Made by a program: the position numbers and the translations under genes. Shown here piece by piece: positions 5,067 to 26,456 of a stretch of 26,555 nucleotides of DNA (positions are counted from its first letter, which is position 1; the number at the start of each line of letters is the position of its first letter). The stretch is from Saccoglossus kowalevskii (taxonomy: Eukaryota; Hemichordata; Enteropneusta; Harrimaniidae), in NCBI RefSeq assembly GCF_000003605.2, contig NW_003148779.1, positions 63,967 to 90,521 on the forward strand. The letters are read 5' to 3'. A model generated the notes under the pieces. It was not told where the DNA came from. It saw only the letters and a program-made list of their open reading frames with translations, and did not search any database.

Positions 5067-5172
5067 ATGTACACCCACATTTATTTACTAGTGTTTCTCT
5101 GTATTGAGGACAAAATTATTGGAACTATAGACGTGACCCAGGGATGGCACTGTTATCCCCGTAGTAATCCAG
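5067..5172 (+). CDS. Large secreted TSP1 gene, exon 1: signal peptide
   Basis: The ATG at 5067-5069 has A at -3 and begins MYTHIYLLVFLCI, a short polar start followed by a hydrophobic core typical of a secretory signal peptide. Then comes EDKIIGTIDVTQGWHCYPRS and a donor (CCAG|GTAGGT, 5172/5173). The exon is 106 nt, 35 codons plus one base (phase 1). It joins in frame to the phase-1 acceptor at 7012, giving NPD|DSSQDIAPC. It supplies Cys29 of the mature N-terminal domain. It was chosen because it is the only upstream open segment I found that combines a start codon, a hydrophobic leader and a donor in the required phase. Another exon between 5173 and 7011 remains possible. Confidence 0.62.
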
Positions 5173-6696
5173 GTAGGTGCTATTCAAACTGAATTATAAA
5201 CGGTATTCCTTGGTATATCCGCCGATTTCATCCACTATGTTAGTTTTCGTACACTTGCCGAAACAATCGCACGTTTGCTAACACTATCGCGCGAATTTAT
5301 CATATGAGAACAACTCTAAAGCAACTGGTCTATGCTTTCGTCGAGCCCCCTTTTTTTGGTTTGCTTAAGTCCTGAAATAGTGGACCGATCATAGTCATCA
5401 GGATTGATTATCGAGAAGAAATCGGCTAACGGAAAAGAAATACCTCAAATTCGTGATTTGTTTCAGCTAACGTGTTATATATATATATATATAACAAGTA
5501 AATCATGCTAATTGTTGCATTCACATTGACAACTCGTTGTACTCCCCGCTATGCGACTGTTCAGACCCATGGTTCCAACGACAAGCGTATTATATTCGAC
5601 AGTGGAAAGTCACGTCGGAATTGGTCACGTCGGCACGCTGAGTTGCAACTCAGAAAACATATTATGTAGCGAATGAACGTTGACTATATATTTCTATGAG
5701 ATGTTGTCATGACCTAGACGCCTGGACATTGAACGCTGGACATCTCAGGGGGCAGTATGAGTGTAAGAATATTTTGGAGAAAATTTCCCAAAACGGATTA
5801 GTTGCTAGCAATTATGTATTGCATGTAACAAGTTTATATTGCATCCAAACACAGAACGATAACATGAAAAGATGTCATACTTGTATATACGCGAAAATGA
5901 GGATTTGATCTGCATACTTATAGAAAATTATTTGAAAAATCGAGAAATTAGATGAATGGATAGCATTTTTATTTGCTTCTCTTAAAAAGCGTACGACTAG
6001 ATGGCGTTTCTGGGTTTCAGTTATATTCCTTGATTTCACGGTTATGTTTGGAAGCACCGGGTAGCGGGCGCGTCAAAGTAAAAATCGTCAAATTCATTTT
6101 AGTTTCCAGGGAAACACAACATGACGGCCTAGAGTCATGAACTCTCTAGATGACGCCGTGTAAGAATATTTACAGAAGTTTTAATAATTATAATTACAAT
6201 GTTTGTCTAGAGGTTTGTAATCGGCATAATTGTCAATATTATTTTATTTGAAACTCGGAATATTTGTCTTTCGATTAGGAATCACATGAACAACTGAAAT
6301 GTATGTCACCCTACAATTTATGATGTCATACTGTTACCACCAATGTATTGGACAAAAATGCGTGAAAACGGTGACATTTTTTATTTATTTAAATCGTTTC
6401 TCAATAAATGTCCGATGACGTCACAGCTTGTATTCCCCTTTGACATGAACTCATATTTTAAAAAAACAATGATATCTGATAAACAATGTCACTATTCATA
6501 CGGTGTATTGCATGTATTATATGAATATTTCTACAGTCCCACTTATATTCTGTGTTTCAAGCCATGGCACAAGTCCTTGCCCAATAAAATAAACAAAGTA
6601 ATTACACAATCTTACCGTAAAGGGCACACAATGATTCACATTTTGTTGTTTTTTACTGCACTCGAATATTGTGTATTCGATGTCATTTGTTTACAC
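5173..6696 (+). other. Intron 1 of the secreted TSP1 gene, proximal part
   Basis: No convincing exon was seen. There is an alternating AT tract that forms a 22-bp palindrome (5474-5495) and a full CRE palindrome (TGACGTCA, 6416-6423). Open frames here are short, hydrophobic and AT-biased, without paired splice signals. Confidence 0.6.
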
Positions 6697-6962
6697 TTCA
6701 TATTCAGTTTGACCCTCGATGTAACTTGGTACATCTTATATTCGGTTTGACCCTCGATGTAACTTGGTACATTTCATATTCAGTTTGACCCTCGATGTAA
6801 CTTGGTACATTTCATATTCAGTTTGACCCTCGATGTAACTTGGTACATTTCATATTCAGTTTGACCCTCGATGTAACTTGGTACATTTCATATTCAGTTT
6901 GACCCTCGATGTAACTTGGTACATCTTATATTCGGTTTGACCCTCGATGTAACTTGGTACAT
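6697..6962 (+). repeat. 38-bp minisatellite, seven copies
   Basis: Seven near-identical 38-bp units run head to tail, with starts at 6697, 6735, 6773, 6811, 6849, 6887 and 6925. Each carries ttcatattcag (or cttatattcgg) then tttgaccctcgatg and taacttggtacat. A diverged eighth copy (ttcacatattgggtttgcccctc) runs into the pyrimidine tract of the acceptor at 7011/7012. Only about 50 bp separate the array from the exon. Confidence 0.95.
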
Positions 6963-7011
6963 TTCACATATTGGGTTTGCCCCTCAATTCGTTCTTTCTA
7001 TTTCATCCCAG

Positions 7012-7216
7012 ACGACTCGTCCCAAGATATAGCACCATGCATTCGGATTATTAGGCCTATTGGAGGTCATGACGTCATAGACCAGGACGCCAAGTCATAC
7101 TTGTTTGAAGTAGACATTGATCCTGGAGGCCAGGAGCATCGTGGTGTGGACATTGATTGGTATCACGTGACCGGAGCAGGCGACAATGAAGAGATCACGT
7201 CAATTAATGATTGCCG
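7012..7216 (+). CDS. Large secreted TSP1 gene, exon 2: unrecognised N-terminal domain, first half
   Basis: The acceptor follows a pyrimidine tract (ctttctatttcatcccag) and the donor is perfect (CCG|GTAAGT, 7216/7217). The 205-nt exon enters in phase 1 and leaves in phase 2. It encodes residues 36-104, including APCIRIIRPIGGHD, SYLFEVDIDPGG, VDIDWYHVTGAGDNEE and a C-terminal NDCR. The alternating beta-like hydrophobics and a central DWYHV suggest a small beta-sandwich, perhaps Ig- or cadherin-like, but I cannot assign a family. Cys45 and Cys103 are here. With Cys29 and Cys109 on neighbouring exons they would make two disulfides in the secretory pathway. A CRE-like TGACGTCA at 7070 falls inside the coding sequence. 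Confidence 0.75.
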
Positions 7217-7825
7217 GTAAGTTTGTACTCTACAGTTTCACATTCACGATGTATGCATGATATGAAGTACAATCCCCGCTAGTTCAAATATAGACTCGTA
7301 CAAGAATAGCCACAATGGCAATTTGGAGAAACTCTATTTTATATCTCAAAAATGTTTTAGTTTCGGGATTTATTTTCTCATATGTATCGTATATTACTCC
7401 GTAATTCTCTGTGTAAAACTAATACAAATCTAAATGAGTTCATAATACGTTCAAATATACTTGAGTTACTCTTAGAAGTAGAAGCGGAAGCGTTTTCACG
7501 TGAGAAACACTTACTGTGTTTTCATTGGTTTTCAATCATGCTGCATTAGTATAACGCGACACATGCATTTGATATGGACAATTGAGGCCGCAGCAGAATA
7601 GACTATTTTAAATGTGTTTGGCTTATTGACAGAAAACGGTACTTTGGGGTGGTTGTTGAGACTTCCCTGAACAGTGTAACAAGATTTGCCCTGCGTGTGT
7701 AACATATATAAATTTGGTTGTTCAGGATTACTTCAAAGTTGAGTTTGTGTTGTTTTCTCGAATTTTCACCGGCTCGACCGGCGTTCCACAGCAGCGCACA
7801 CATAGCCCATAGAAATACATGTACA
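7217..7825 (+). other. Intron 2, proximal part
   Basis: No exon or RNA gene was recognised. The segment includes an E-box-type CACGTG at about 7498 and ordinary AT-rich DNA. GC content rises toward the 73-bp repeat that follows. Confidence 0.5.
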
Positions 7826-8029
7826 GTGGTGCGCGTCTTAGCAACCTGGAACGTCTTGTGACGTAGCTCCGCCCCCGAGGATAAAAATTCATGGTAAAGT
7901 GGTGCGCGGCTTAGCAACGTGGAACGTCTTGTGACGTAGCTCCGCCCCCGAGGATAAAAATTCATGGTAAAGTGGTGCGCGGCTTAGCAACGTGGAACGT
8001 CTTGTGACGTAGCTCCGCCCCGAGGATAG
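7826..8029. repeat. 73-bp tandem repeat with promoter-like motifs
   Basis: Three head-to-tail units start at 7826, 7899 and 7972; the third is cut short near 8029. Each unit holds gtggtgcgcg, cttagcaac, cttGTGACGTAGctCCGCCC and GGATAAAAATTCATGG, that is a CRE half-site, a GC box and an AT-rich TATA-like string in fixed order. The first two units are nearly identical; the third has lost one C and its tail. The unit length is not a multiple of three. Confidence 0.93.
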
Positions 8030-8321
8030 CGCATTTGTTCGGAGAGGCATACCCCCTCTACGGAAGAACATTACACAACTGATATAATTTTTAAAATATT
8101 TTTTTCGAGAATTAGAAAAGCAAGGTTGTGAAAATGTGAGTAAGAGTGAAAGTGCATGATTTCATGGTAACTACGGTCACTTTTTAATGTAATTACTGAA
8201 TTAGTTTTGAAAACTTGTCATTTAATTTGTAGCAGCTAAAAATTCATAGATCACTTTCCTGGAAGTAGTGAGACTGAGGTGCAAGCACGATGGCCGCCTT
8301 TTTCATGGTGCAAATACAAAC

Positions 8322-8399
8322 ATTTCTGTCTGTTGATATTTGGTAAAAGGCAATCTTATTTTTGTCACGCGGATTGGTACATCCATAAGCACAATATCT
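8322..8399 (-). pseudogene. THAP-type zinc-finger N-terminal fragment
   Basis: On the minus strand 26 codons read RYCAYGCTNPRDKNKIAFYQ followed by ISTDRN. This closely matches the start of THAP domains (C-x2-4-C, then GC.N..DK.K..F...P). The frame stays open on both sides (about 8244-8498), but no proper Met is present where THAP proteins start (the codons read WHA), and the conserved downstream W, P and second Cys-His pair are absent. It may be a decayed exon or a P-element/THAP-transposon remnant in intron 2. A real antisense first exon with a weak donor is less likely. Confidence 0.45.
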
Positions 8400-8510
8400 T
8401 GCGTGCCAGTTAAACTTGCATACAGTCTCTTGTTTATTATTTTGTTGGTGTTTTTTTATAAAACTAAATATTACGCACTGAACCCAGACCGGTGACAATC
8501 ATCACTGGTG

Positions 8511-8525
8511 TCGCAAGAGGGCGTC
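8511..8525 (+). promoter_or_regulatory. CTCF-like motif
   Basis: TCGCAAGAGGGCGTC fits the conserved CTCF core (C[G/A]CNAG[G/A][G/T]GGC[G/A]). It is a single-site match by eye in intron 2. Occupancy is unknown and chance matches occur. Confidence 0.3.
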
Positions 8526-9061
8526 TACATGGGTCACAAGTCCTTTATTTCGCGGTAACCCGGCTTTCGTCATTATACACTCCAATCTTTTATTTTATTA
8601 AATTACACACCCAATACTAATGTACGCACACATTTACAATATATGGCAAATTCAAAGTGAGAGACTCATTTTGTTTTTACTTTCCGTAACACAAACGGTG
8701 TGACAGTAGGACTTTCGTGCTTTCGTATATTTCTTCGTCTGGCAATGACATGACGGTCAGTTTGATGAACCGAGTAACACCTTAGTAACCGTTATTCCGC
8801 GACGAAATTATTTTCTTTTGTAAATTATATTTATATTTCACCCTTGACAGTACATTTATGGAACAATCATTATCAACTATAGATAAAATATTTTAAAACT
8901 TGTTTCAATTAGGAATAAATCAACACGAGAGCCCTCTAATAACAAAAATACGCAAATGATACGCGTAGTAAAAGTCTGGCGGTGTGTGGTGGCAGAGATA
9001 CTTTCGGTAATATAACCGCAAAGAACTCTGGGAAGGAGAATGGTGAAAACCCTCATCCCTA

Positions 9062-9592
9062 ACACTGGTGGCGCTCTCATTTCCATTCTGGCTTTCCCCA
9101 CTGCCACACCGTATGTTCCGTAATTTGCATAAAGAAAGTGGTGATTCACCACATTTTGTTCAAATAAAGAATATATGCTATAACATAAATGATGTTAATA
9201 AATATGAAATCATGCAACAGAAAGTGTTTTTAGTTGTATACATGTGACTTTTGTACGAGACCTAGTTTTCAAAATGAAAGTACATTCATGTTTACATGTG
9301 TGATGTTTGACTAAAGGAAACCTGCTTTCGCAAGTCAAAGTCTGTTTTATGTTGTCAAAACTGCTTAAACTAATCTCGCGAGATTCAGACGAATGGGAAA
9401 ATGTGTGTGATAGCGAATATTCAAAGTTCATATACAAGAGCGAAAACAATTATTTCAAAATCACTGTGCCACTCAAAGAGAATTCGAACGTCTTTGATTA
9501 CGTTCTTTTCTTCGATATGCAAATACGGTGTGGCAGTGGTGAAAACCCGAACGAGAGGAACAGAAGTGAGAGCGCCACCAGTGTTTGGAGTG
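9062..9592. repeat. Diverged inverted repeat pair (about 9062-9146 and 9512-9592)
   Basis: The left arm on the plus strand carries AACACTGGTGGCGCTCTCA, then about 16 bp, then CCACTGCCACACCGTAT and a nearby TTTGCAT. The reverse complement of the right arm has the same two blocks in the same order with about 27 bp between them, also followed by TTTGCAT. The arms are separated by about 370 bp. This is probably two copies of one short interspersed element in opposite orientation, or the ends of a MITE-like unit. No target duplication was seen. Confidence 0.7.
9372..9385. promoter_or_regulatory. 14-bp palindrome containing TCTCGCGAGA
   Basis: AATCTCGCGAGATT is perfectly palindromic and centres on TCTCGCGAGA, a motif known from many animal CpG promoters. 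It lies between the arms of the inverted repeat. There is no adjacent exon to regulate, so function is uncertain. Confidence 0.35.
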
Positions 9593-9599
9593 TGATATA

Positions 9600-10008
9600 A
9601 ATGACTCTCGTAAGTCGAAGAATGGCGTTTCGCATGCGCGTGCATGTTGTTTTGGGATGTAACGTAAACTTGCACGCGTGATATTGCGCTTCTGGGTGTA
9701 GCAATTGACGTCACAAAAATAAAATTTCCTTATATTTACTAAAGGCAAACTGACATTTGTTTTTTAAACCATGGCAAAGCAGGGGTATTTTTGCACCCCA
9801 GTTTTGCCACTTCCGGGCTGTGTCCAAGTGTATATTGTTGAGGGCAGTATAAAACCGCAGGAACGGCAACTACTAGTATATACGCTACATAGACAAGAAA
9901 TAGATCTAGTTTTAAACAAAGAACAGCCATATTTTTATGTATAGGCTTTGGGTTCAAGAGATGTGGTTACAATTCCTTAAAAAAATGATTCAATTTTATC
10001 TTTTCTAG
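9600..10008 (+). other. Intron 2, distal part
   Basis: Contains a full CRE palindrome (TGACGTCA, 9706-9713) and a TATA-like agtataaaa (about 9847). No coding exon was recognised. It ends in the pyrimidine tract and acceptor (tttatcttttctag) of the exon at 10009. Confidence 0.5.
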
Positions 10009-10139
10009 TAATTTCCAGGTTTGCGAAGCTTCTGTCAACCTCGTTCAAGGCCTCCTGCATCTACATTTTAGAGTGACTGTTGGCTTTCGTGACAGATTAG
10101 AACATGTCTACGAAGATATGATCCTAGAGCTACAACAAG
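10009..10139 (+). CDS. Large secreted TSP1 gene, exon 3: unrecognised N-terminal domain, second half
   Basis: The acceptor ends tctag (10008) and the donor is CAAG|GTAGAT (10139/10140). The 131-nt exon enters in phase 2 and leaves in phase 1, fitting the exons at 7012-7216 and 12564 exactly. It encodes NFQVCEASVNLVQGLLHLHF, then RVTVGFRDRLEHVYEDMILE and LQQ. Cys109 lies six residues after Cys103 of the previous exon. The beta-like LLHLHFRVTVGF stretch followed by an acidic helix suggests the end of a compact extracellular domain. A second acceptor 10 bp downstream (ttccag) would hit stops, which favours 10009. Confidence 0.75.
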
Positions 10140-10352
10140 GTAGATATATGCAACACAACATATTCGGTATTTCATTTCCTATACACCACCCCACTAATGC
10201 ACAGCTAAGATCCAAATCATATCTAATCCCGGTCAGCTATTGGTTGTAGATTTGATTGGTTGAATGAAAATTCTGCCTACGTTAGCATTGTTAATCATCC
10301 ACAGGATCATGTGATTATGTCAAACGCACAAAAGTCTTTATCAGTTGCTCGA
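10140..10352 (+). other. Intron 3, unique proximal part
   Basis: AT-rich single-copy sequence without exon features, running into the first visible copy of the 42-bp minisatellite. The open frame across the gap is an artefact of N. Confidence 0.6.
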
Positions 10353-12438
10353 TGTCTAGACCAAGGTNNNNNNNNNNNNNNNNNNNNNNNNNNNNNNNNN
10401 NNNNNNNNNNNNNNNNNNNNNNNNNNNNNNNNNNNNNNNNNNNNNNNNNNNNNNNNNNNNNNNNNNNNNNNNNNNNNNNNNNNNNNNNNNNNNNNNNNNN
10501 NNNNNNNNNNNNNNNNNNNNNNNNNNNNNNNNNNNNNNNNNNNNNNNNNNNNNNNNNNNNNNNNNNNNNNNNNNNNNNNNNNNNNNNNNNNNNNNNNNNN
10601 NNNNNNNNNNNNNNNNNNNNNNNNNNNNNNNNNNNNNNNNNNNNNNNNNNNNNNNNNNNNNNNNNNNNNNNNNNNNNNNNNNNNNNNNNNNNNNNNNNNN
10701 NNNNNNNNNNNNNNNNNNNNNNNNNNNNNNNNNNNNNNNNNNNNNNNNNNNNNNNNNNNNNNNNNNNNNNNNNNNNNNNNNNNNNNNNNNNNNNNNNNNN
10801 NNNNNNNNNNNNNNNNNNNNNNNNNNNNNNNNNNNNNNNNNNNNNNNNNNNNNNNNNNNNNNNNNNNNNNNNNNNNNNNNNNNNNNNNNNNNNNNNNNNN
10901 NNNNNNNNNNNNNNNNNNNNNNNNNNNNNNNNNNNNNNNNNNNNNNNNNNNNNNNNNNNNNNNNNNNNNNNNNNNNNNNNNNNNNNNNNNNNNNNNNNNN
11001 NNNNNNNNNNNNNNNNNNNNNNNNNNNNNNNNNNNNNNNNNNNNNNNNNNNNNNNNNNNNNNNNNNNNNNNNNNNNNNNNNNNNNNNNNNNNNNNNNNNN
11101 NNNNNNNNNNNNNNNNNNNNNNNNNNNNNNNNNNNNNNNNNNNNNNNNNNNNNNNNNNNNNNNNNNNNNNNNNNNNNNNNNNNNNNNNNNNNNNNNNNNN
11201 NNNNNNNNNNNNNNNNNNNNNNNNNNNNNNNNNNNNNNNNNNNNNNNNNNNNNNNNNNNNNNNNNNNNNNNNNNNNNNNNNNNNNNNNNNNNNNNNNNNN
11301 NNNNNNNNNNNNNNNNNNNNNNNNNNNNNNNNNNNNNNNNNNNNACTGTCTAGACCAAGGCGTATCAGAGTTTGGTGTGACTGTGTACTTACTGTCTAGA
11401 CCGAGGCGTATCAGAGTTTGATGTGACCGTGTACTGTCTAGACCGAGGCGTATCAGAGTTCGATGTGAATGTGCACTGTCTAGACCAAGGCGTATCAGAG
11501 TTTGGTGTGACTGTGTACTTACTGTCTAGACCAAGGCGTATCAGAGTTTGGTGTGACTGTGTACTTACTGTCTAGACCGAGGCGTATCAGAGTTTGATGT
11601 GACCGTGTACTGTCTAGACCGAGGCGTATCAGAGGTTGATGTGACCGTGTACTGTCTAGACCGAGGCATATCAGAGTTTGATGTGACCGTGTACTGTCTA
11701 GACCAAGGCGTATAAGAGTTTGGTGTGACTGTGCACTGTCTAGACCAGACCACTGTCTAGACCACTGTCTGTATCAGAGTTTGGTGTGACTGTGTACTCA
11801 CTGTCTAGACCAAGGCGTATCAGAGTTTGGTGTGACTGTGTACTTACTGTCTAGACCGAGGCGTATCAGAGTTTGGTGTGACCGTGTACTGTCTAGACCG
11901 AGGTGTATCAGAGTTCGATGTGACTGTGTACTTACTGTCTAGACTGAGACGTATCAGTGCTCGATGTTACCTTGACTGTGCACTGTCTATGCTGAGACGT
12001 AACAGAATTTGATGTGACTGTGTACTGTCTAGACCGAGACGTATCAGAGTTCGATGTAACTGTGAACTTTCTAGACCGAGACGTATCAGAGTTCGATGTA
12101 ACTGTGTACTTTCTAGACTGAGACGTATCAGAGTTTGATGTAACTGTGTACTTTCTAGACTGAGACGTATCAGAGTTTGATGTGACTGTGCACTGTCTAT
12201 GCTGAGACGTAACAGAATTTGATGTGACTGTGTACTGTCTAGACCGAGACGTATCAGAGTTCGATGTAACTGTGAACTTTCTAGACTGAGATGTATCAGT
12301 GCGCGATGTGACTGTGTACTGTCTAGACCGAGACGTATCAGAGTTCGATGTAACTGTGTACTTTCTAGACTGAGATGTATCAGTGCGCGATGTGACCATG
12401 TACTGTCTAGACTGAGACGTATCAGAGTTACGTGTACT
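10353..12438. repeat. 42/46-bp minisatellite spanning an assembly gap, rich in GTCTAGAC
   Basis: The unit is about actgtctagaccgaggcg followed by tatcagagtttgatgtgacc and gtgt: 42 bp, with 46-bp variants that insert actt. Visible copies run from 11345 to about 12438. A partial copy (tgtctagaccaagg) touches the left side of the gap, so the unresolved 977 N (10368-11344) very probably lie inside the array. About 19 visible units carry the perfect palindrome GTCTAGAC. The distal part forms a higher-order pattern of 210 bp (5 x 42), marked by the variant cactgtctatgctgagacg at 11981 and 12191. Confidence 0.95.
10368..11344. other. Assembly gap (977 N)
   Basis: A run of N flanked on both sides by the same minisatellite unit. 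This is probably a repeat collapse, and its true length is unknown. No coding content can be claimed. Confidence 0.99.
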
Positions 12439-12563
12439 AACAAAAGTCACATGATTAAACTATGTGCACATTGAATGTAGAAATATTTTGTGTTTTAAAC
12501 TTTTTTAAAATATGTTTTCATCAAATTCTGACTAGAAATGTTCCATATACATTTGTTTTTCAG

Positions 12564-15500
12564 GAAACAGTGTAACTGAAGCTGCTATCCCCGATTTGTT
12601 TGAAAACAATTCTTTGTTTGCAGTTACGAATACAGATAGTGAAATAATTGATACTGATGTTGGTCCGACTTTCATGATTACACCACAGGATGTCCCAAAA
12701 AGCAATTCATTTGACTCATTTCCAACTAATAACAATCACAATAACTTTTTATCATCTGAACAAAATAATGCACATATGACCGAACACAAATTGAAAAGTC
12801 AGATAATGGAACTGCTTGAGGGCGCTCTACCTGAACGGACGTCAGATTATGGTGATCCAGTGCAAAAGGTTACGAATTCCCATCATCTTCCAGAGATTGC
12901 AACTCATACATCCAGTAAAGAAGAAGCCGAAATGAATTTAAGCAATCTTCTTGAGAACATATTAGCTGATGATGACATTAATGCCAACGTTGGATATAAT
13001 TTGAATGATAATAAAGTTTCAGCATCGTCTAGACCTAAGCACCACCAGATAACAAACGAATTTCATAACATGGCTACTTTCCTTGACAATAACAAAAACT
13101 TCGATTACGATTATGACGTTACAGATGTGTTGCACACATTGCATCAGCATGAAAAAGACACCAGAAAACTGCGTGGAACCACCAACAATTTACACCACAG
13201 TCGTCATAAACCCAAATTCTACAAGGCTTACCATTCAACACTGAAGAACTCAAATCATGATTATGAATTTTCACGAGCAGTTACCCAAAGAGCTGAATAT
13301 CGTGCAAATTATAATGAAGACACTCAGACAAATACGTATGAAGAAAATGATCTAACAACGCAACCAGTGCCTACATTGGCAATGAAAGACACAGGCAATA
13401 TATATAACCACAGTGGTTCAGTGATGTCAGAACCTACTATGGTATCAGTCACTGAAAAACAAATACCAATGCAGACAATTATTAACAATCATAGTGAGCA
13501 CAATTTGCCAAGTTATAATAACACTAACCTTCATGTAAATGATACAAACCAGAATAACATGAACATTACTGACTTAATGTCAACTGATGATTCCATAAAA
13601 TTGTCTAATAGTCACAGCATGATTGAGCCAATCGCCGGACTAATGAAGAAAATAGAAGAACTGAACGATAACCTAGGAAAGCTAATAAATCAGTCGACAC
13701 CAAATGATTCGCTCAACTCCACAGTTATGCACCAAATTCAATCAGGCATAGATGACCTAAGAATTGGTAAAACGAATACAAAAACAGAAGCAAACAAAAC
13801 AAAGAATAACATGACACAAGATCCTGCATTATTACAAGTTTTAGAAGTGATACCTCCACATGTACCTCAAGCAAACAGCACTGATGATGACACACCTATT
13901 TCCAGAGAGAACAATTCAATGAAGTCAATTGGTAGTAAGCAGACTGGTAGGCATAACACAGATGAAATTAGTTGGGCAGACCACTTTTTAAATTTAGCTA
14001 ATAATATTCGTCATGATGATGTTGCCAGTGACATTTTGCATGATCTTCACCAACATCCTAGTACAAAACTATACAAGACAGCTGGTTATGGTGTTAAGGA
14101 GGGCGGGCAACATTCTGTTGATATACTTGGGTTGTCTACTCAGTCGATACCACAATCCAAATCCAGGAACACCATCGAAGATGCTCAACACGATGTAGTG
14201 AATCTCAATGAGATCAACCCATCGCATACATCTAGCTCATTTCCCTCAAAACATGTAGAATCTGTTACCAGTGAGATGCCAGATCGTGCACCAGAACCTG
14301 TACAAATCAATGATTCAGAAAAAGTTAATTCATTTTATACAGATACCAGTGTTGAAAATACTGAAGCATTGGAAAGATCGCATGCCTTCAAGACAGGACA
14401 AGGAAAACCAATTTCTGATCTCTCCCAACAAAAGAACATACATATAAACAAACTGAATCCGGATGCAATGTTCCAAAATGGATTCAATCAGCAGCCCGGT
14501 CAACAAGTAGTACCAATTACACACAATACAATGGAACATAATGAGCAGACATCTTTTCAAGAAACTTATCTTCCAAGACAGTTCAAGCCTGAATCACAAA
14601 TCATGGTAGATAGACACAACAGCGCTGCCACAAACAGTGTGCATGGCTACCCTGGATCACAATCAGTACAGCCATCTACCAAATATGAAGATATAGTAAA
14701 TGACAGAAAACATCATTTACATAGTTCTGATGAGTTTAAGCATCACACATCTATTTCTAATGACCATTCTGCCCAATCATTAACCGGAAAGAACTACATG
14801 GACAGAAACAATATCTTGGAAGATTGGCGACATACTTACCATACCAGTAAGCAACACGATGGCGAAAATGCACATGAGCAGTTTGATCGTGAAAATACAA
14901 TATATGAAAATGATTATTTAGATGCATCAAACATACATCCAAAAAATCATAAAGATACGCATCATTCCGGCCATTCAGCACCTCGCCATAAACCTATGGA
15001 TACCCACATAAATGGCATACACCGAAAATGGGAAAAAAATGTACATCATTCTGATTTTTCAACATCTCACTATAAACCCGAAGGGATGCATGCAAACAGT
15101 TTTGAAAAACACCACACGCATCATGATAATGAACTGAGAAAGACTGATGTACAAGAACCTGAAACAACCACCAATGTGTACCCTACTACCCATGCCGATG
15201 TTAATTTGTATTCAGACTCAAGACCTCACTATATTAACAAAGGTACAAATCATCTACCCAATGTTTTTAAGCCCAATATTAAAAGCAGGGATAAGGAACA
15301 TTCTGACTTGCATCATTCATCTGTACTATATAAACCATCACCAGATGACTTCATTACTTTGACTCCAAATATCAGTCAACCCGGAGTAAGAAAAGAACAA
15401 AACCCATCTAATTTGATGCAAAGTATTGCTGAATTAAGTACTAACCTTAAAGAACTTGTCAGTAGAGTCTTGAATGGAAATGCAACCATTAATAAAGACC

Positions 15501-18500
15501 TGTCAAGTGTGGGACATGATGCTGAGTATCAACAGACTACAAATGCATCCACGCCAAGTGAAATAGCGCAGGTCAAATCAACTAGTAGTCATGCAAATTT
15601 TACTCAAGTAGTTGTTATGGAGAAGCCATTATCTTCAGGTGTCACGGGCCAACATGAGATGAATTCAGACATTCCAATTCCTCCCAAAGATACAACTGAT
15701 TTTCAACAGACTAGAGATGCCTCCACGCCAATTGATGTAGCGCAGATCCAGTCAACTAGTAGTCATGCAAACCTCACTCAAGTAGTAGATGATTTTGACA
15801 TTAGAATGCCAACTATTTTCAAACAAGAGGATGACAAGGAAACTACACAGGGCATTAATAGTGACATATCAGATATTATAGATATTGTGTCAAATGAAGA
15901 TTCAACAGAGTCTATTGCTGAAATGAAACCAGGAATGGCAGAAAATCAAGCAAGGCAAAATAAAATTACTTCAAACATTCCAATTTCACAGCATAGTACA
16001 GCTGACAACTATATGACACAAAATGAACAAACTGCTAATGCTGCTTCAGTTGAAAAAAGTTCAAACGTTATATCAAGTCAACAACTTGGTCTACTAAACA
16101 CAGCAGAAAAAGATCATATTATATCGGAGGAGCAATTAAAGACATCACTTACTGGTACAGAGGACATTCCAAATAACGTTGTTATGGAGAAGCCATTATC
16201 TTCAGGTATCAAAGGGCAGCATGAGATGAATTCAGACATTCCAATTCCTCCCCAAGATACAACTAAATTTCAACAGTCTACAAATGCCTCCACGCCAAGT
16301 GATATAGCGCAGATCCAGTCAACTAGTAGTCATGCAAACCTCACTCAAGTAGTAGATGATTTTGACATTGAAATGCCAACCAAATTTACACAAGAGGATG
16401 CAAAGAAAACTACACAGGGCATTCATAGTGACATATCAGATATCATAGATATTGTGTCAAAAGAAGATTCACAAGAATCTATTGCTGAAATGAAACCAGG
16501 AATGACAGAAAATCAAGCAAGGCAAGATAAAATAACTTCGGACATTCCAATTTCACAGCATAATAAAGCTGGAAACTATGTGACGCAAAATGAACAAACT
16601 TCTAATGCTGTTTCAGTAGAAAAAAGTCTGATATCAACTGAACAACTTGGTCTACTAAACACAGCAGAAAAAAATCATATTGCATCGGAGGAGCAATTAA
16701 ATACATCACTCACTGGTACAGAAGACATTCCAAATGACGATGTTATGGAGAAGCCATTATCTTCAGGTATCACAGTGCAACATGAGATAAATTCAGACAT
16801 TCCAATTCCTCACCAAGGTACAACAGTAGTAAACTATGTGACGAAAATTGGTGAAAATGCTGCTAATAATGTTGTGTCTGGTATGAATAGTCCAAGAATG
16901 GCAAATCAACTGCCTGATCATTTAAACACCAAAGCAAATCATACTATATTGAAGCAACTAAATAAATCATATCACCCTTTCCCAGGAAAAAATGAGGCAT
17001 TATTGCATCGTGTTGGAAATCGTTCTAGATCAAAAGATATTCCAACTGATGTTTCCACTACTACTGGTACACTACCACCTGCAGCATACATGGATGAGAA
17101 AGACCCCATCAGTAACAAGACACCTCTAGCTGAAGATTATCTCTCAGCTGTGTCTGCAATACCTAGTGTGATGAATACACCAGTGAAGGAATCAACAGTT
17201 CCATTCTATGATGAGATAATACCACAAATTGAAAGTACACAATCTATCAGTGCAAACCATCTTTCCGAACTTCCTAAAACTATTGCAAATCCTACCAGTG
17301 GGACAAACACACACATGGTTGAAAATGAAGAAAAGCAATCAACAACATTGAAGAAAGAGAATGAGGCTTCTGCAGAACATAACAGTATACAAGAACTTGT
17401 GGAACTTCAAACAATGGCAATTGACAGGGAACACCTAACAGATAGAATACAATATCATAATTCACTTCCAAGTGATCAGCCAGATCAAATAGATCATTCT
17501 GTACAAGATCTTAAAACCACAATAGTTGGTTCTGTGTCTGCAACACAGGTCATTCCCAGCGACGTGAAATCTACTACGCCAACTCCTGATTTAAAGGAAC
17601 TAGATGGGGATTCACTTGTGAATAAAATTGTAGAACCAGCTTTGGATACAGTTGCAGGGAAAATCAGCAAAGTTTCACATGACACACATGGTAGTAAATC
17701 GTCTGCAATACCTTTTTCAATTGATGAGCAGCAGAAAAATATTATCAGAGGAAAGGAATATTTTACTGATAATGGGCTAGGATTAGTGGAACCAGCTTCA
17801 TCAAGTATGTCAGCTGCTTCTCAAGTTAATATGTCTTCTGGTGATCAAATTATAGGAGTACATGATCTTCACAATATGTCAGCCAAACAAGACACAATAG
17901 AGGAACACATAGGAGTAAACTCAGCTTTTAATGAAATTGCATCATTAGACACTCTAATAGATGGACATGAAGGTAAGCCTTCAGATATAAGTGAGACTAT
18001 CAGTCATGACAGTATGTTGCGAATGGATGCATTGGGATACCCTCTGAGTAATACTGAGCCCAAGAAAGAATCAACATTCTCTGGTGCAAAAAAGGGTCAA
18101 CTTGAAGGTTATACTGCAGACCTTGATACTATAGAACATCTACAAGATATTAAAAATGACCTATCAGATAGTATTGCCTCGAGAGTTGCAGACAAAGTAG
18201 AAACTTCTTTGTTGACATCAAGTAAAATGATTCATCAAATCCTAAATGAGACAGGACAGGTGTCTTATTCAGATGGTGACCTTGGTAAAGATGATGAACC
18301 ACCAACCATCGTAAATGACAGTGACACATTTTATGTGTCAACAACAGCAGCACCAGATGCAAATACCACTGAGTTTCATAACAATATATTCAGTACAACT
18401 ATGCAACCTTCCACTATGGAAATAACAACTGATATGATTCGTAACAGTTCTGAAGATTCTGGACAGCTTACAGGACAGTTGTCTCATTCAGACGGTGACC

Positions 18501-20807
18501 TTGGTAAAGATGATGAACCACCAACCGTTGTAAATGACAGTGACACATTTTATGTGTCAACAACAGCAGCACCAGATGCAAATACCACTGAGTTTCATAA
18601 CAATATATTCAGTACGACTATGCAACCTTCCACCATGGAAATAACAACTGATATGATTCGTAACAGTTCTGAAGATTCTGGACAGCTTACAGGACAGTTG
18701 TCTCATTCAGACGGTGACCTTGGTAAAGATGATGAACCACCAACCATTGTAAATGACAGTGACACATTTTATGTGTCAACAACAGCGGCACCAGATGCAA
18801 ATACCACTGAGTTTCATGACAATATATTCAGTACGACTATGCAACCTTTAACCATGGAAATAACAACTGACATGATTCGTAACAGTTCTGACGATTCTAC
18901 AAGATCAATTGAAATCATTCCAAAAATGTTACTGAAGTCTGAATATGAGCAAATTGCTAATGCAGTTCTACGTATGTTGCACAATCATTCGGGTCATTAT
19001 GATGACGACTCCTGGCTTGATTCTATCCATGTTTTCAGCAATAATGGAAGTTTAATGCATGAAAAATCTGCAATGCCAACTTTCACAGATATTGAACCTG
19101 CAGACATGGCTTTTAAAAAAACCCATACTTTAAACAGAGGTGAGACACTTGGAAATAAAAGTGACGACTCAATTATAGAGATAATGGAACCAGAAATGAG
19201 AGCACCACAAGAGGTCATAGAGACAGTTCCAATGTCAACTTCAACTGTGTATCACAATGTGAAACCTAATCTGTCATTTAATAACCTTCCAGCTACATCA
19301 CATTCCTCTAGTAAATTCAATTCATTGATAAGTGCACGACCTATTTCCTCTACAAAAGAGGCAAGAATCGCAGAAAATTTGAAAAGAAGTGAAGAAAGCA
19401 CAATTAAGAAGGGTACTGCAGATCATTCCATTCTCTACAAAATTATGAATAAGTTGTCAAGTAACAAAGACAACAATAATGATAACAATAATGAAATCAG
19501 TAGCAGAGATGATAGTTTTCATCTGGTGATTAACAATAATGGAGTTACAAACAACTATCGCTATCGACCTGATAATGCAACTAACACAGACTTGAAAGAG
19601 TCTCAGTTTCAACACCCGCACAACAGTGAGACACAAGAACATCATGAGCCAAATCAACCAAAACATGCTTTTGCTTATTCACAAATATCATTGTTCCACG
19701 GGTATGATGCGCATGAACCAACTGCGGAGAGAGAAGCAAATAAAAATGCATTGAATAACTTACATTCACAACCAACCAACTACCTTGAGCAGGATTCCTC
19801 ATCAGAACCATCGAAAGATGCTGAAATCACTTCCTCTGCAGATGCATCTCATAATGCCAACTCCACTATACTAGCTGTTCAGTTAGTTAGTGGCATCGAG
19901 AATGCTATCAAAAATCAGGCTGAAACCCTCACTCATACTGATCCATTCCTCAGCATTGACGCCAAAGGCCATGACAACAAACAGAAGGTGATGAACAAGA
20001 AACAAAATGTTGATAGCTATAATGAAAATATAAGGGATGATCATAGTGACCACAGCATCACAATTGTCGTGAATGAGAAAGATGATAGTCTACACGTGCA
20101 TAGTTCAACAAAAAGTCTGTCAAAGAACATACAAAATGGAAAGAGTGAGAGCAGTTTAACCAAAGAAAAGAAAGACACTGAACAGAAAGATTATGATCTG
20201 ACTGATAGCAAAGGGCATAGTTCTGGTGAGCTGGATGAAGGCATGGAGATGAAGCAATGGAACAAGCAGCTGAACCAGAATAAACACGTTGATCGTGTTA
20301 CACCCGTGCAGAAAAGAACAAGCTTGCATCATTCTAATCACATTAAAGATGGTTTACATACAAACATCAAACATGGCAGTCTCGCAGATAACTATGTTTC
20401 CCATGACAGGAATCAGGATCAGCAGACAAAAGATAATAGCTTTGCACATAATCCTATTGTTATAAATAATTATGTACAACTTCCTCACGTTACTGCAAAT
20501 GATGAATCACAAAGTGATGTTGCTGATGAAGAACCTCATTCAGATGACCCCTATAATTTTTTATCCGTGATGGCACCCAAGGGATCTAAACCTTCTGACT
20601 TAGTGGGTGCCGACTCAACAGACAAGAAGGTTAAGAAGATTTCTAAACCAGGTAATGATTATCCACAAACCACAACAGAATACAACCAAGATGAAGAAGA
20701 TAGAATCACTGAAGCCCATTCATTTCTGAGTTTCCTCACATGGTTGAAAGACATGGTTGTAGGAAAGGGGGATGAAATGTTGGAACCAGTAGAGCATCGT
20801 GAAGCAG
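12564..20807 (+). CDS. Large secreted TSP1 gene, giant exon 4: 2748-residue cysteine-free region
   Basis: One uninterrupted frame runs from an acceptor (tttgtttttcag, 12563) to a donor (GCAG|GTAAGG, 20807/20808). It is 8244 nt, phase 1 at both ends, giving residues 148-2895. It has no cysteine, only about six Trp, and is rich in Asn, Ser, Thr, His, Asp, Glu and Gln, with about 45 N-glycosylation sequons counted by eye. A His-rich stretch covers about 14690-15330. Two repeat families are present (15614-16880 and 18251-18907). Short amphipathic helices recur, such as DVLHTLHQH (13124), DILHDLHQH (14030) and AVLRMLHNH (18962), and MKKIEELNDNLGKLI (about 13645). The end is hydrophobic (FLSFLTWLKDMVVG). 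There is no internal membrane segment or known domain. Secretion is inferred from the upstream signal peptide and the TSP1 modules that follow. It may be a mucin-like, matrix or adhesive spacer; I do not recognise a family. Confidence 0.95.
15530..16880 (+). repeat. Coding repeat family A: about 189-residue units
   Basis: Two full units (15611-16177 and 16178-16738; 567 and 561 nt) are followed by a partial third (from 16739). A partial copy of the internal ASTPS.IAQ..STSSHAN block precedes them at about 15540. Units start VVMEKPLSSG and contain NSDIPIPP, STSSHANLTQVVDDFDI, SDISDIIDIVS, ESIAEMKPGM, QLGLLNTAEK and SLTGTEDIPN. All length changes are multiples of three. The copies have diverged more than family B, so they are older. 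Confidence 0.95.
18251..18907 (+). repeat. Coding repeat family B: three 73-residue units (219 bp)
   Basis: Three tandem 219-bp copies start at 18251, 18470 and 18689 and are almost identical at the DNA level, implying a recent expansion or gene conversion. Each encodes TGQLSHSDGDLGKDDEPP, then NDSDTFYVSTTAAPDANTTE, then IFSTTMQPSTMEITTDMIRN and SSEDSGQL. Every unit carries three N-glycosylation sequons (NDS, NTT, NSS) and many Ser/Thr suitable for O-glycosylation. Confidence 0.97.
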
Positions 20808-20988: not shown

Positions 20989-21192
20989 TTGCAACACCAT
21001 CAATAATTAAGGTGTTTAACTATAAATGGTATGATTGGTCAAAGTGGTCAACCTGTTCCGTATCATGTGGGAGTGGTGTACAGTCACGTAGTAGAGTCTG
21101 CACTGATTTGAATAACGAAGCTATGGTCGGCGACAATAACTGCGGTGGGACATCACTTGAAACCACAACGTGTCTTTTGCATGAATGCCACG
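20989..21192 (+). CDS. TSP1 module 1 (exon 5)
   Basis: A 204-nt phase 1-1 exon between tttgtttcag and CACG|GTAAGT; residues 2896-2963. It shows WYDWSKWSTCSVSCGSG, then RSRVC, NNCGG, TTC and HEC: six cysteines in TSP1 order. The WxxWxxW ladder is the C-mannosylation signature, and CSVSCGSG fits the O-fucosylation consensus CxxS/TCxxG. A 20-residue linker precedes the first Trp, joining the module to the giant exon. TSP1 modules bind glycosaminoglycans, matrix or receptors. Confidence 0.96.
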
Positions 21193-21366: not shown

Positions 21367-21582
21367 ATACAAACAATAGCTTTAGTGTTTTAAAACCGCC
21401 ACAATCGCCGTATTTCTGGGCACCTTGGTCCGATTGGTCACCATGTACAGCATCGTGTGGAGGTGGAAAAATTACCAGAACTAGAGATTGTTTGAACGCA
21501 GACACTAAATCGGAGGAAGACAAGGAGATGTGTGATGGAGCTTCTTTGGAGTCTGCTTCATGTGGTTTACTCAAATGTAAAG
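21367..21582 (+). CDS. TSP1 module 2 (exon 6)
   Basis: A 216-nt phase 1-1 exon after gttcattttcag, ending AAAG|GTATAT; residues 2964-3035. It shows YFWAPWSDWSPCTASCGGG, ITRTRDCL, EMCDG, ASC and LKC, with six cysteines and both the C-mannosylation and O-fucosylation motifs. The YFWAPW lead-in is shared with modules 3 to 5, marking a locally duplicated subgroup. The N-terminal linker (DTNNSFSVLKPPQSP) is the longest of that subgroup. Confidence 0.97.
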
Positions 21583-21804: not shown

Positions 21805-22005
21805 AAACATCACCAACAGAGGCGCCATTGCCTTATTTTTGGGCGCCATGGTCCATGTGGTCAAAGTGTTCAGTGTCATGTGGCAACGGAAACATAACCA
21901 GACGACGAAGATGTCTCAATTTCAATTCGAAAATGGCAGTGGCGAATGGAAAGTGTGACGGCGTGGCGGCAGAAAATATTTCTTGTAGCTTGGCGAAGTG
22001 TCCTG
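21805..22005 (+). CDS. TSP1 module 3 (exon 7)
   Basis: A 201-nt phase 1-1 exon after ttcgtatttcag, ending CCTG|GTACGC; residues 3036-3102. It shows YFWAPWSMWSKCSVSCGNG, ITRRRRCLNF, KCDG, SC and KCPG: six cysteines, WxxWxxW and CxxSCxxG all present. The basic ITRRRRC strand would favour heparan-sulfate-type ligands (inference). One sequon (NIS) lies near the C-terminus. Confidence 0.97.
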
Positions 22006-22134: not shown

Positions 22135-22317
22135 AGATACCATCTTATTTCTGGGCACCTTGGTCCAAGTGGACGCAGTGCTCAGCAACATGTGGTGATA
22201 GTCATATAACAAGGACAAGGAATTGTTTACATCTAGCTACTAAATTACCAGCCAATGGGGAGAAATGCGACGGAGAACAAATGGAGACTACATCTTGTAA
22301 CTTACCGGAATGTCAAG
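22135..22317 (+). CDS. TSP1 module 4 (exon 8)
   Basis: A 183-nt phase 1-1 exon after ttgtattcacag, ending CAAG|GTAATT; residues 3103-3163. It shows YFWAPWSKWTQCSATCGDS, ITRTRNCLHL, KCDGEQ, TSCNLPEC. It has six cysteines and the Trp ladder, but CSATCGDS lacks the final Gly of the O-fucosylation consensus. It has the shortest linker of the YFWAPW subgroup. Confidence 0.97.
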
Positions 22318-22399: not shown

Positions 22400-22603
22400 T
22401 AATTCCAACAGCCACAGATGAATCATTATTGCATTTCTGGGCACCATGGACTAGATGGACTAAGTGTTCAGTATCTTGCGGGGAAGGAGATATATCAAGA
22501 ACTCGAAAATGTCTACATCTACGCACTAAATCGGAAGTTGATGCAGATGAGTGTGACGGCGTTGCCAGAGAGTCAACCTCGTGCAGTTTAGCTGACTGTC
22601 CAG
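22400..22603 (+). CDS. TSP1 module 5 (exon 9)
   Basis: A 204-nt phase 1-1 exon after an 82-bp intron (acceptor tttgtttgtag), ending CCAG|GTATTT; residues 3164-3231. It shows HFWAPWTRWTKCSVSCGEG, ISRTRKCLHL, ECDG, TSC and DCPG, complete in cysteines and in both glycosylation motifs. It is the last member of the WAPW subgroup. Confidence 0.97.
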
Positions 22604-22828: not shown

Positions 22829-23005
22829 TAAAACCTCCCATTGTGTTGTCACACTGGAATCAATGGAGTAGATGGTCTTCCTGTTCAGTAACATGTGACG
22901 GAGGACACAGGTCAAGCAAACGGCGGTGTATTTCCCGGTCAACAACCCATTGTCCTGGTAAGAGAAGACGTGTGAAAAGATGCCATTCAGAATCATGTCC
23001 AACAG
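22829..23005 (+). CDS. TSP1 module 6 (exon 10)
   Basis: A 177-nt phase 1-1 exon after gttccgtatag, ending ACAG|GTAAGG; residues 3232-3290. It shows SHWNQWSRWSSCSVTCDGG, SSKRRCISRS, HCPGKRRRVKRCHSESC. It is compact and the most basic module, with GKRRRVKR between Cys4 and Cys5, suggesting a glycosaminoglycan-binding site or a furin-type cleavage site (RRVKR) in the secretory pathway. Asp replaces the usual Gly after Cys2. The downstream intron (641 bp) is the longest in the TSP1 array and no exon was seen in it. Confidence 0.96.
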
Positions 23006-23646: not shown

Positions 23647-23838
23647 CTCCACTTCCTCCTTCGTATCAATGGGCACTGTGGTCACCATGGGCACCATGCA
23701 CAGCAACCTGTGGCTCGTCCGTGAAAACAAAGTTCCGTCAGTGTATGGACTGGCTAACCCAGACACACGTGGGAGACACACACTGCATCGGTAACTCTTT
23801 GGAAAAAGGTCCTTGTCCAGCGCTGACTGACTGCAAAG
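23647..23838 (+). CDS. TSP1 module 7 (exon 11)
   Basis: A 192-nt phase 1-1 exon after aatcatttcag, ending AAAG|GTATGT; residues 3291-3354. It shows YQWALWSPWAPCTATCGSS, KFRQCMDW, THVGDTHCIGN, GPCPALTDC. It has six cysteines. CTATCGSS lacks the Gly of the O-fucosylation site. The VGD.HCIGNS.E pattern pairs it with module 8 as a second subgroup. Confidence 0.96.
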
Positions 23839-24173: not shown

Positions 24174-24368
24174 TTTACGTGGCTCCTTCTTATCGCTGGT
24201 CCTACTGGTCGCCGTGGACACAATGTACAGCAAGTTGCGGTGCGTCGGAGAAAAGAAGACATCGCCAATGTTTAGATAAACGATTTGATGAGTTCCAGGT
24301 TGGTGACTCAAATTGTATCGGCAGTGCCAAGGAGACTGCGTCTTGTCCCATCATGGTTGACTGTCAAG
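24174..24368 (+). CDS. TSP1 module 8 (exon 12)
   Basis: A 195-nt phase 1-1 exon after gtttttgtttcag, ending CAAG|GTAATA; residues 3355-3419. It shows YRWSYWSPWTQCTASCGAS, RRHRQCLDKR, VGDSNCIGS, ASCPIMVDC. It has six cysteines; CTASCGAS lacks the final Gly of the O-fucose site. Similar to module 7 in the Cys3-Cys6 region. Confidence 0.96.
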
Positions 24369-24673: not shown

Positions 24674-24883
24674 TTGCTCATGAAATACAGCAATACCAAA
24701 TGAGAATATTGAGTGAACAATTCTTGGAATCATCGTGGGCTGTGTGGAATCAATGGTCAAGTTGTGGAGTGACGTGCGGAAAAGGTCACGTGACACGATC
24801 GAGATCATGCGAGATGCGCAGTGGGATACCTTGCGAGGGTGACGACAAACAGCTGCAGTCATGTCATTTGGATCCATGTACAG
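24674..24883 (+). CDS. TSP1 module 9 (exon 13)
   Basis: A 210-nt phase 1-1 exon after gttatttttcag, ending ACAG|GTGTGT; residues 3420-3489. A Gln-rich, possibly helical 22-residue linker (VAHEIQQYQMRILSEQFLES) leads into SWAVWNQWSSCGVTCGKG, VTRSRSCEMRS, PCEGDDKQLQSC, DPC. It has six cysteines and an O-fucose-type CGVTCGKG. The compact CEG.D...Q.C pattern resembles module 12. Confidence 0.96.
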
Positions 24884-24951
24884 GTGTGTTAAATTTCATA
24901 GATTGCACATTTATGTAAACTGAAAAATTTTATTCAAGTTTGCGTAATCAT

Positions 24952-24952
<1 letters not shown>

Positions 24953-24983
<31 letters not shown>
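24953..24983. repeat. T(31) homopolymer
   Basis: An uninterrupted run of 31 T in the intron between TSP1 modules 9 and 10, about 120 bp upstream of the duplicated segment. It may be the tail of an antisense retroposed sequence or simple slippage. The length is prone to sequencing error. Confidence 0.9.
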
Positions 24984-24984
<1 letters not shown>

Positions 24985-25208
24985 GAAATGAGAATGGATT
25001 TACAAATACTTTTTAAACTAATGTTTATATTTAAAACCATGTACATTGCAATAACGCTTCGGCAAGTTGAAAATGAATAAAACCTGAAATTGAAAAAGAC
25101 CCAATTCTGCCTGGAAGACTATAAACAGCGTTATAAGCGACCAAGAACTAACTTCTTTTGTTTTTACTGCAACTAGAATATCATTTATTACATGACATTT
25201 GTTTAAAG

Positions 25209-25403
25209 TGCAACAAGATTCACCCCTTTCATATCAATGGTTGCCATGGTCACAATGGACAGCATGTTCTGTTTCCTGTGGGATTGGTACTATGTCAAGA
25301 TCTCGAAAGTGTTTGCATGGAGCTGCTTCTCAATACGCGGATCAAAGCAAGTGTAGGGGAAATGGGGACCACGTCAAACAGTGTTCACTGGATAAATGCC
25401 AAT
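25209..25403 (+). CDS. TSP1 module 10 (exon 14), duplicated copy A
   Basis: A 195-nt phase 1-1 exon after atttgtttaaag; residues 3490-3554. It shows YQWLPWSQWTACSVSCGIG, MSRSRKCLHG, KCRGNG, QCSLDKC, with six cysteines and both glycosylation motifs. The donor is CCAAT|GTATCT, where copy B has CCAAG|GTATCT. The conserved -1 G of the donor has become T. Splicing would still keep the frame, giving Leu instead of Val at the junction, but with a weaker site. Read-through would stop 47 codons later. Confidence 0.93.
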
Positions 25404-25560
25404 GTATCTTTAAGTGTAGTGTATGTGGTCTTTGTATTTTACGAAGTGAACCCAACTCTTCCTGGGAGGCTAAAAACAGCGTTATAAGCGACCAAGAACT
25501 AACTTCTTTTGTTTTTATTGCAACTCGAATATCATTTATTACATGACATTTTTTTTAAAG

Positions 25561-25755
25561 TGCAACAAGATACATCGCTTTCATATCAATGGTTGCCATG
25601 GTCACAATGGACAGCTTGTTCTGTTTCCTGTGGGATTGGTACTATGTCAAGATCTCGAAAGTGTTTGCATGGAGCTGCTTCTCAATACTCGGATCCAAGC
25701 AAGTGTGGGGGAAATGGAGACCACGTCAAACATTGTTCACTGGAAAAATGCCAAG
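25561..25755 (+). CDS. TSP1 module 11 (exon 15), duplicated copy B
   Basis: A 195-nt phase 1-1 exon after attttttttaaag, ending CAAG|GTATCT; residues 3555-3619. It is nearly identical to module 10 (YQWLPWSQWTAC, CSVSCGIG, MSRSRKC) and differs mainly around Cys4 (SDPSKCGGNG) and Cys5 (KHC). The acceptor uses the unusual -3 A (aaag rather than cag), preserved in both copies. Donor intact. Confidence 0.96.
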
Positions 25756-25910
25756 GTATCTATAAGTGTATGTGGTCTTTGTATTTTACGAAGTGCATCC
25801 ACTAGTAGTAAGATTGTTCCATTGGCATAGGGCAAGCTTTTAAAACTACCATATAGATCCGAAACCCTCTCCTCTTATTTATTTTTTTAATATATATGTT
25901 TCATTTTCAG

Positions 25911-25967
25911 ATTACGGTTTATCAATATAGTTTATGGAAAGTCTTTTACACGTGTATGTTAAATAAA
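25911..25967 (+). other. Possible alternative terminal exon with poly(A) signal
   Basis: A strong acceptor (tgtttcattttcag, 25910) is followed in the correct phase 1 by DYGLSI and a TAG (25928-25930). An AATAAA hexamer (25962-25967) follows 32 bp later. Its use would end the protein six residues after module 11, releasing a shorter isoform. Nothing else supports it, and the constitutive path to the module at 26295 also keeps the frame. Confidence 0.3.
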
Positions 25968-26294
25968 TTAACCCGTGACCCATTTTTGTTCGCAGTGACT
26001 TTGCATAGCAATACAATGTATCATACATTTCCAAAGGCTAAACTTTATTGATCAAACGGAAGTAAGGTCACAATGATCTGACAGAAGTGATCTGTTTGGT
26101 GTTCTAAAAAAAAACACCGAAGACGTACATTTAAATGCGTACGCAAGTTCTAAAAATCAAAAAAATATTCGTATATTCAAATTCACAGGCGGCAGTCGAT
26201 GCTTGTAGAATGATCTAGACCAACTTCGATTGTATCCAAAGTAATATTTATTCATTTAAAAATTACTGAAATGGTTTTTAACTATTTTTATTAG
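25968..26294 (+). other. Intron before TSP1 module 12, distal part
   Basis: AT-rich intron DNA; no exon or RNA gene seen. It ends at the acceptor ttttattag (26294). Confidence 0.6.
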
Positions 26295-26456
26295 AATCAT
26301 CATGGAGTCTTTGGTCGCCATGGTCACCGTGCCCTGTGACATGTGGCAATAGTCACGTAAGTCGTCATCGTCAATGTGACTCACTTGGTACGGTTACATG
26401 TAAGGGCCAAGGGTCACAACAGAAAGCCTGCGATGTACCAACATGTGAAACCCAGC
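26295..26456 (+). CDS. TSP1 module 12 (exon 16), last in window
   Basis: A 162-nt phase 1-1 exon after ctatttttattag, ending CAGC|GTAAGT; residues 3620-3673. It shows SWSLWSPWSPCPVTCGNS, VSRHRQCDSL, TCKGQGSQQKAC, PTC, six cysteines in the shortest module. CPVTCGNS lacks the last Gly of the O-fucose motif. The consensus donor and phase 1 exit mean the gene continues to the right. The remaining 99 bases are intron, with low-complexity acacaaca/agcaca strings. Confidence 0.95.

Follow-up and report, generated by a model that had tools for sequence, protein, structure and literature searches.

The stretch analyzed here, referred to as the window, comprises the last 26,555 bases of the 90,521-base contig NW_003148779.1 (C3904; positions 63,967 to 90,521, forward strand) in the 572-Mb genome of the hemichordate Saccoglossus kowalevskii, and its right edge is the contig end. 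On its plus strand lies a gene that we interpret, with a probability of roughly 0.6, as encoding a secreted multi-domain protein of the extracellular matrix type, in which a long disordered tether carries an adhesion array of thrombospondin type 1 (TSP1) modules. The rebuilt gene model has 16 exons between 5067 and 26456 that join in a single frame, with 11,020 coding bases for 3,673 residues and no stop; it is identical to the model proposed in an earlier reading made from the letters of this DNA alone (the sequence-only reading). The predicted borders of all modelled exons are GT-AG, and the exon phases run 0-1, 1-2, 2-1, and 1-1 throughout thereafter. The last exon ends at a donor at 26456 and, therefore, the gene is still open at the contig end, as that reading had also stated. 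The parts encoded upstream of the TSP1 array, with the features that interrupt or subdivide them, are as follows.

5067..5172, plus strand: exon 1, with the ATG, a short hydrophobic core (predicted signal peptide) and the first Cys of the N-terminal domain; donor in phase 1; sole candidate start
7012..7216, plus strand: exon 2, N-terminal domain, phase 1 to 2; found by coding score and internal-exon scan
10009..10139, plus strand: exon 3, end of the N-terminal domain, phase 2 to 1; found by internal-exon scan and coding score
10368..11344, no strand: assembly gap (977 N) in intron 3; next to it, a 42-bp minisatellite extends to 12429
12564..20807, plus strand: exon 4, Cys-free spacer of 8,244 bp and 2,748 codons, phase 1 to 1; 0 in-frame stops, periodicity and strong splice sites
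15611..16824, plus strand: spacer repeats D2 and D3, spaced by about 189 residues
18251..18907, plus strand: spacer repeat of 73 residues in three copies

Exon 4 has no stop in its own frame, compared with 157 and 359 in the other two plus-strand frames. The chance of 2,748 open codons at its base composition is ~10^-83, and three-base periodicity was found in 8 of 8 bins along the exon. Within it, no acceptor reaches 12 bits and two donors reach 9. The exon encodes no Cys, so that the Cys-free stretch of the protein extends over 2,808 residues from C109 to C2918. Ser (304), Thr (242), Asn (241), Asp (222), and His (147) are abundant among the 2,748 spacer residues, which are also rich in Glu and include 6 Trp; with 407 Asp plus Glu and 226 Lys plus Arg, the net charge is −181. 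FoldIndex was below zero in 84.9% of the 101-residue windows of the spacer and slightly positive in the TSP1 array, and the spacer is predicted to be mostly disordered. In the model, exon 4 is joined to the TSP1 exons in phase 1 and in the same frame. The Cys-free region, its N/H/S/T/D richness and its connection to the array thus agree with the sequence-only reading.

That reading had also suggested mucus as one possible nature of the spacer, which the data here do not specifically support. Mucins of the PTS type have a dense Ser/Thr/Pro region, and the 546 Ser plus Thr and 138 Pro of 2,748 residues in the spacer fall short of such density. Based on 400 shuffles, N-glycosylation sequons occur in the spacer at the expected frequency, S/T-P is depleted (z −3.0), and LxxxL is mildly enriched (z 2.5). 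Mucin, proteoglycan, Fam20C substrate, and neuropeptide precursor were all considered as identities for the spacer and rejected, as no motif enrichment was found for any of them.

In addition to the two repeat families listed above, the spacer harbours three copies of a 91-nt family, and residues 300-343 and 602-645 form an old pair that has diverged to 34% identity. Judged by these copies, the spacer has grown in part through internal duplication. The pairwise dN/dS values of the 73-residue repeat are 0.20, 0.31, and 0.54, on few changes.

Downstream of the spacer, the exons encode the following TSP1 modules.

20989..21192, plus strand: TSP1 module 1
21367..21582, plus strand: TSP1 module 2
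21805..22005, plus strand: TSP1 module 3
22135..22317, plus strand: TSP1 module 4
22400..22603, plus strand: TSP1 module 5
22829..23005, plus strand: TSP1 module 6, basic, net +11
23647..23838, plus strand: TSP1 module 7
24174..24368, plus strand: TSP1 module 8
24674..24883, plus strand: TSP1 module 9
25209..25403, plus strand: TSP1 module 10, which arose recently as a tandem copy of module 11; its donor, AAT|gtatct, is weaker
25561..25755, plus strand: TSP1 module 11
26295..26456, plus strand: TSP1 module 12, donor at 26456

All 12 modules match Pfam TSP_1 (PF00090; total E 3.7e-104), and all 12 have six Cys, WxxWxxW and CxxS/TC; the strict form CxxS/TCxxG is present in 8 of the 12. A genome-wide TSP1 search also lists 12 on this contig, in line with the count of at least 12 given in the sequence-only reading. 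On these matches, the gene product belongs to the TSP1/TSR superfamily and to none of the named subfamilies tested. Motifs of the WxxW and CxxS/TC kind are described as sites of C-mannosylation and O-fucosylation of TSRs in the accessible portion of PMC4448532. In a comparison of 74 modules, modules 2 to 5 are mutually closest, as are 7 and 8, 10 and 11, and 9 and 12, while module 6 is nearest to module 9, barely ahead of a module from another contig. Modules 10 and 11 represent a recent 352-bp duplication. These relationships point to growth of the TSP1 array by tandem duplication. The genome as a whole is rich in TSP1, with at least 137 matches among the 150 of 256 candidates that were scored.

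For the region upstream of the spacer, we used an internal-exon scan (120-400 bp) in which the splice scores of exons 2 and 3 served as thresholds; on the plus strand from 5173 to 12560, these two exons are the only candidates, and the minus strand of 1-12560 and the plus strand of 1-5000 yielded none. The coding score of exon 2 exceeds the 99th percentile of the null under both codon models, the long-exon model and the TSP1 model. Exon 3 lies between the 95th and 99th null percentiles under the long-exon model and below the 95th under the TSP1 model. When only synonymous codon choice was considered, exon 3 was above its null 95th percentile, while exons 1 and 2 and most TSP1 exons were below theirs; because most TSP1 exons fail too, this measure says little. 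Exon 1 is the sole first-exon and signal-bearing start candidate under the criteria used, and only 1 of 40 shuffles of 1-7011 yielded any first-exon candidate at a threshold set at exon 1's own value. The putative signal peptide at this start has a hydrophobic core with a mean of 3.01 over 8 residues. Overall, support is good for exons 2 and 4, moderate for exon 3, and weak for the signal-peptide exon. The 977-base gap in intron 3 could conceal another exon. The introns of this region contain minisatellites at 6698-6966 (38 bp, intron 1), 7809-8028 (73 bp, intron 2), and 11345-12429 (42 bp, intron 3), the last of which adjoins the assembly gap; an inverted pair at 9058-9088 and 9558-9588 (31 nt, 87%, separated by 469 nt) resembles a miniature inverted-repeat transposable element.

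The N-terminal domain spans ~120 residues, with Cys at 29, 45, 103, and 109. It has no Pfam match up to E 10, and a search of the Protein Data Bank (PDB) to the same limit returned just eight sequences at chance level (E 0.87-1.7), in agreement with its earlier description as an unknown four-Cys domain. Searches of prokaryote and viral collections, which are little informative for an animal gene, also gave no relative. In the organism's own genome (E up to 10, 3 of 3 first-look candidates scored), only the two exons of the domain itself matched. The domain therefore seems to be single copy, within a first look that might overlook a diverged relative. By eye, our guess at its fold is a beta-sandwich.

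Based on these parts, we propose that the signal peptide would route the protein into the secretory pathway, where the TSP1 modules would fold as rigid disulfide-bonded rods. The small disulfide-bonded front domain and the TSP1 array would form two binding ends, connected through a tether that is disordered, mildly acidic, and some 2,750 residues long. At ~0.36 nm per residue for a stretched chain, a disordered linker of this size could be drawn out to a contour length of about 1 micrometre, for which a two-ended tether is the natural reading. At its TSP1 end, the protein would bind to matrix, glycosaminoglycan, or cell-surface partners, and within a fibre, coat, or secretion, the tether would provide reach, hydration, and extensibility. 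The open frame, the exon phases, the identity of the TSP1 modules, the lack of Cys, and the composition can be read from the sequence; splicing, secretion, and disorder are predictions. The modelled parts are real, and their job in the animal is a guess: binding partners, tissue, mechanics, extensibility, and role are what we infer from the architecture. The sequence-only reading had proposed an extended, hydrated matrix, mucus, or adhesive molecule; its order of parts and its extended spacer before the TSP1 array are retained here, the latter by FoldIndex, while mucus is not specifically supported.

Several observations weigh against this interpretation. The model is a prediction from genomic sequence, and the C-terminus of the gene product lies beyond the contig end. 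Exon 1 scored below the null 95th percentile under both codon models. For the N-terminal domain, FoldIndex is zero, and AlphaFold on exon 2 alone gave two strands with a mean predicted local distance difference test score of 45.8, which is not interpretable. FoldIndex, on which the predicted disorder is based, is a crude predictor. In the spacer, there is no excess over 400 shuffles of N-sequons, glycosaminoglycan (GAG)-like sites, S-x-E sites, or dibasic sites. Constraint on the spacer repeats other than the 73-residue one is weak or mixed, with dN/dS of 0.67 and 1.27 for the longer repeats and of 0.66, 0.34, and one undefined value for the 91-nt family; few changes and loose constraint among repeats would be expected of a disordered linker and fit one, which is not proof. 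As to the TSP1 array alone, the authors describing Mlig-ap2, a giant adhesive protein of a flatworm, considered an essential part of its TSP1 domains in substrate attachment unlikely (accessible portion of PMC8621496), which speaks against a glue role for the TSP1 array itself.

The open 3' end bears on an alternative that we consider unlikely, namely, that the gene encodes a membrane receptor, for example, adhesion G protein-coupled receptor-like or single-pass, with its transmembrane part past the contig end and the spacer and TSP1 modules as ectodomain stalk. An adhesion G protein-coupled receptor with TSP1 would have GAIN and seven-transmembrane domains farther downstream. Receptors with TSP1 ectodomains exist, among them the BAI receptors, and UNC5 chains are among the PDB matches of modules 1 to 4; however, the 3,673 residues seen contain no receptor domain. 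A candidate for the 3' continuation is contig C3283, into which TSP1 exons enter 626 bp from the contig end. It has four such exons in all. Exons one to three are compatible with phase 1-1, and the donor of the first is weak (4.9). The fourth, which we delimited visually, leads into a stop at an AATAAA; the exon scan gave only a shorter candidate for it, with a weak donor (2.9). Among 37 TSP1-bearing contigs besides C3904 (C3283 included), which are part of those in the genome-wide TSP1 search, C3283 is the only one in which a listed TSP1 match runs in less than 1 kb from an end. The join is unproven: blastn of C3904 against C3283 gave no end-to-end overlap, only short matches, the strongest of them between TSP1 exons, and in the similarity ranking of 74 modules, none of the 12 modules in the window ranks among the seven best matches for any one of the four modules on C3283. 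If C3283 continues the gene, the protein would end at this stop after four more TSP1 exons; it would then be about 3,900 residues long, have 16 TSP1 modules, and lack a membrane anchor.

A bolder version of the tether, in which the protein is a lineage-specific giant spring composed of an undescribed single-copy four-Cys domain, a one-exon disordered linker of ~2,750 residues, and an adhesive TSP1 rod in an extensible extracellular material of undescribed kind, appears quite unlikely. We find it decidedly improbable that the protein serves in pattern binding or defence in the manner of rhamnospondins or Hydra TSR gland proteins, with a ligand from microbes or food bound by the N-terminal domain and aggregated by the TSP1 array. 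Hydroid rhamnospondins, with a lectin domain and eight TSRs, are proposed microbe binders (PMC4820225), but the N-terminal domain here has no lectin or other Pfam match, and the accessible portion of that report does not mention a giant spacer of this kind for rhamnospondins or Hydra TSR proteins. It is very improbable that the model fuses neighbouring genes or includes a false exon 1, in which case the signal peptide or N-terminal domain would be foreign to the TSP1 gene: exon 1 is weak and intron 3 contains the gap and a minisatellite, but the phases 0-1, 1-2, 2-1, and 1-1 chain unadjusted, exon 4 has by eye no signal-bearing start of its own, and, with a matrix derived from these same exons, the highest-scoring acceptor of the set (20.0) is that of the first TSP1 exon.

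Returning to the secreted tether with its TSP1 array, if the gene is expressed as modelled, it would be a clear case of the low-complexity-plus-TSP1 plan of animal secreted materials, with an unusually long one-exon spacer. The orphan four-Cys domain could be a new fold, and the protein would offer a testable system for how mechanical work is shared between disordered tethers and TSP1 arrays. Otherwise, it would be just another large gene with a TSP1 array in a genome that is rich in TSP1.

Elsewhere in the window, an open frame on the minus strand (3-1076) runs past the left edge and encodes S/T/A/P-rich repeats and, at its C-terminus, a Myb/SANT-like domain (PF13837, E 2e-10). A decayed stretch at 1420-1906 resembles, by eye, the reverse transcriptase of a long interspersed nuclear element; it has no Pfam match. 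Rfam and tRNA searches gave no match. Three groups of other TSP1 loci in the genome were noted. Locus L011 (contig C4459) has, in one stretch of the minus strand, both a TSP1 exon and a Cys-rich frame that is EGF-repeat-like by eye. Loci L012 and L013 (contig C1006, minus strand) have TSP1 exons amid long GGP-rich, Cys-poor open frames with a common TLPEDIGxPGGP-like motif, as well as a TIL domain (PF01826, E 3.4e-6); the minus strand is favoured because of the shared motifs and the TSP1 strand, the opposite strand reading GPP. They possibly represent a SCO-spondin-like giant with Gly-Gly-Pro spacers. Locus L024 (contig C1552, minus strand, reverse-strand coordinates 1056-4830) is isthmin-like in that it combines a charged, Cys-poor open frame of 367 residues with a TSP1 exon and an AMOP domain (E 2.7e-21), and we take it to be a likely isthmin.

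Among known systems, isthmins have a single TSP1 followed by AMOP, and the gene described here has 12 TSP1 modules and no AMOP in the part seen (Pfam). Like the likely isthmin L024, it has a TSP1 exon preceded by a long open frame that is poor in Cys, and it differs from L024 in that the latter has one TSP1 and an AMOP domain. Thrombospondins in the strict sense have the TSP C-terminal domain and type 3 repeats, both absent by Pfam from the part seen here. Likewise, Pfam detected none of the vWD, C8, TIL, and LDL-receptor domains of SCO-spondin and Mlig-ap2 in the 3,673 residues seen, and none of the ADAMTS or ADAMTSL features (metalloprotease, Cys-rich/spacer, PLAC) in the N-terminal part, the spacer, and the TSP1 array seen.

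Further parallels lie in overall plan, and for these we rely on the accessible portions of the reports cited. ADAMTS7 and ADAMTS12 have a non-globular mucin-proteoglycan segment set within a TSR array; however, they are proteases, and their mucin domain bears chondroitin sulfate (PMC4448532), whereas the gene here shows no protease domain and no GAG-site enrichment. Hydra HyTSR1 and related proteins consist of long TSR arrays without other recognised domains; some are found in gland mucous cells, and the TSR-only HyTSR1 is expressed in granular mucous gland cells of the hypostome. HyTSR1 differs in having 48 TSRs, with no giant spacer described there (PMC4820225). Mlig-ap2 shares giant size, a long repetitive core, and TSP1 near the C-terminus, and differs by its vWD, C8, TIL, and LDL domains, two large repeat arrays, and length of 14,794 residues (PMC8621496). 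The byssal TSP-1 protein of the pearl oyster Pinctada fucata has a signal peptide, a low-complexity region, 24 TSP1 modules, and a vWFA domain, and it is a secreted structural fibre protein (PMC4597212). The low-complexity region and TSP1 and, by prediction, the signal peptide are shared with the gene described here, while the 24 TSP1 modules in three clusters, the vWFA domain, the GGSS/GSS repeats, and the predicted mass of 191.6 kDa are not; a Cys-free segment of 2,748 residues or a four-Cys N-terminal domain is not mentioned in that portion of the report. No description of this order of parts was recognised among titles and abstract openings of the open-licence literature, and the statement of the sequence-only reading that no named protein is known to have this order may be literally true; the kind, however, is known from the byssal protein. 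The overall plan is a known one, in which the orphan domain and so long a spacer in a single exon stand out as unusual.

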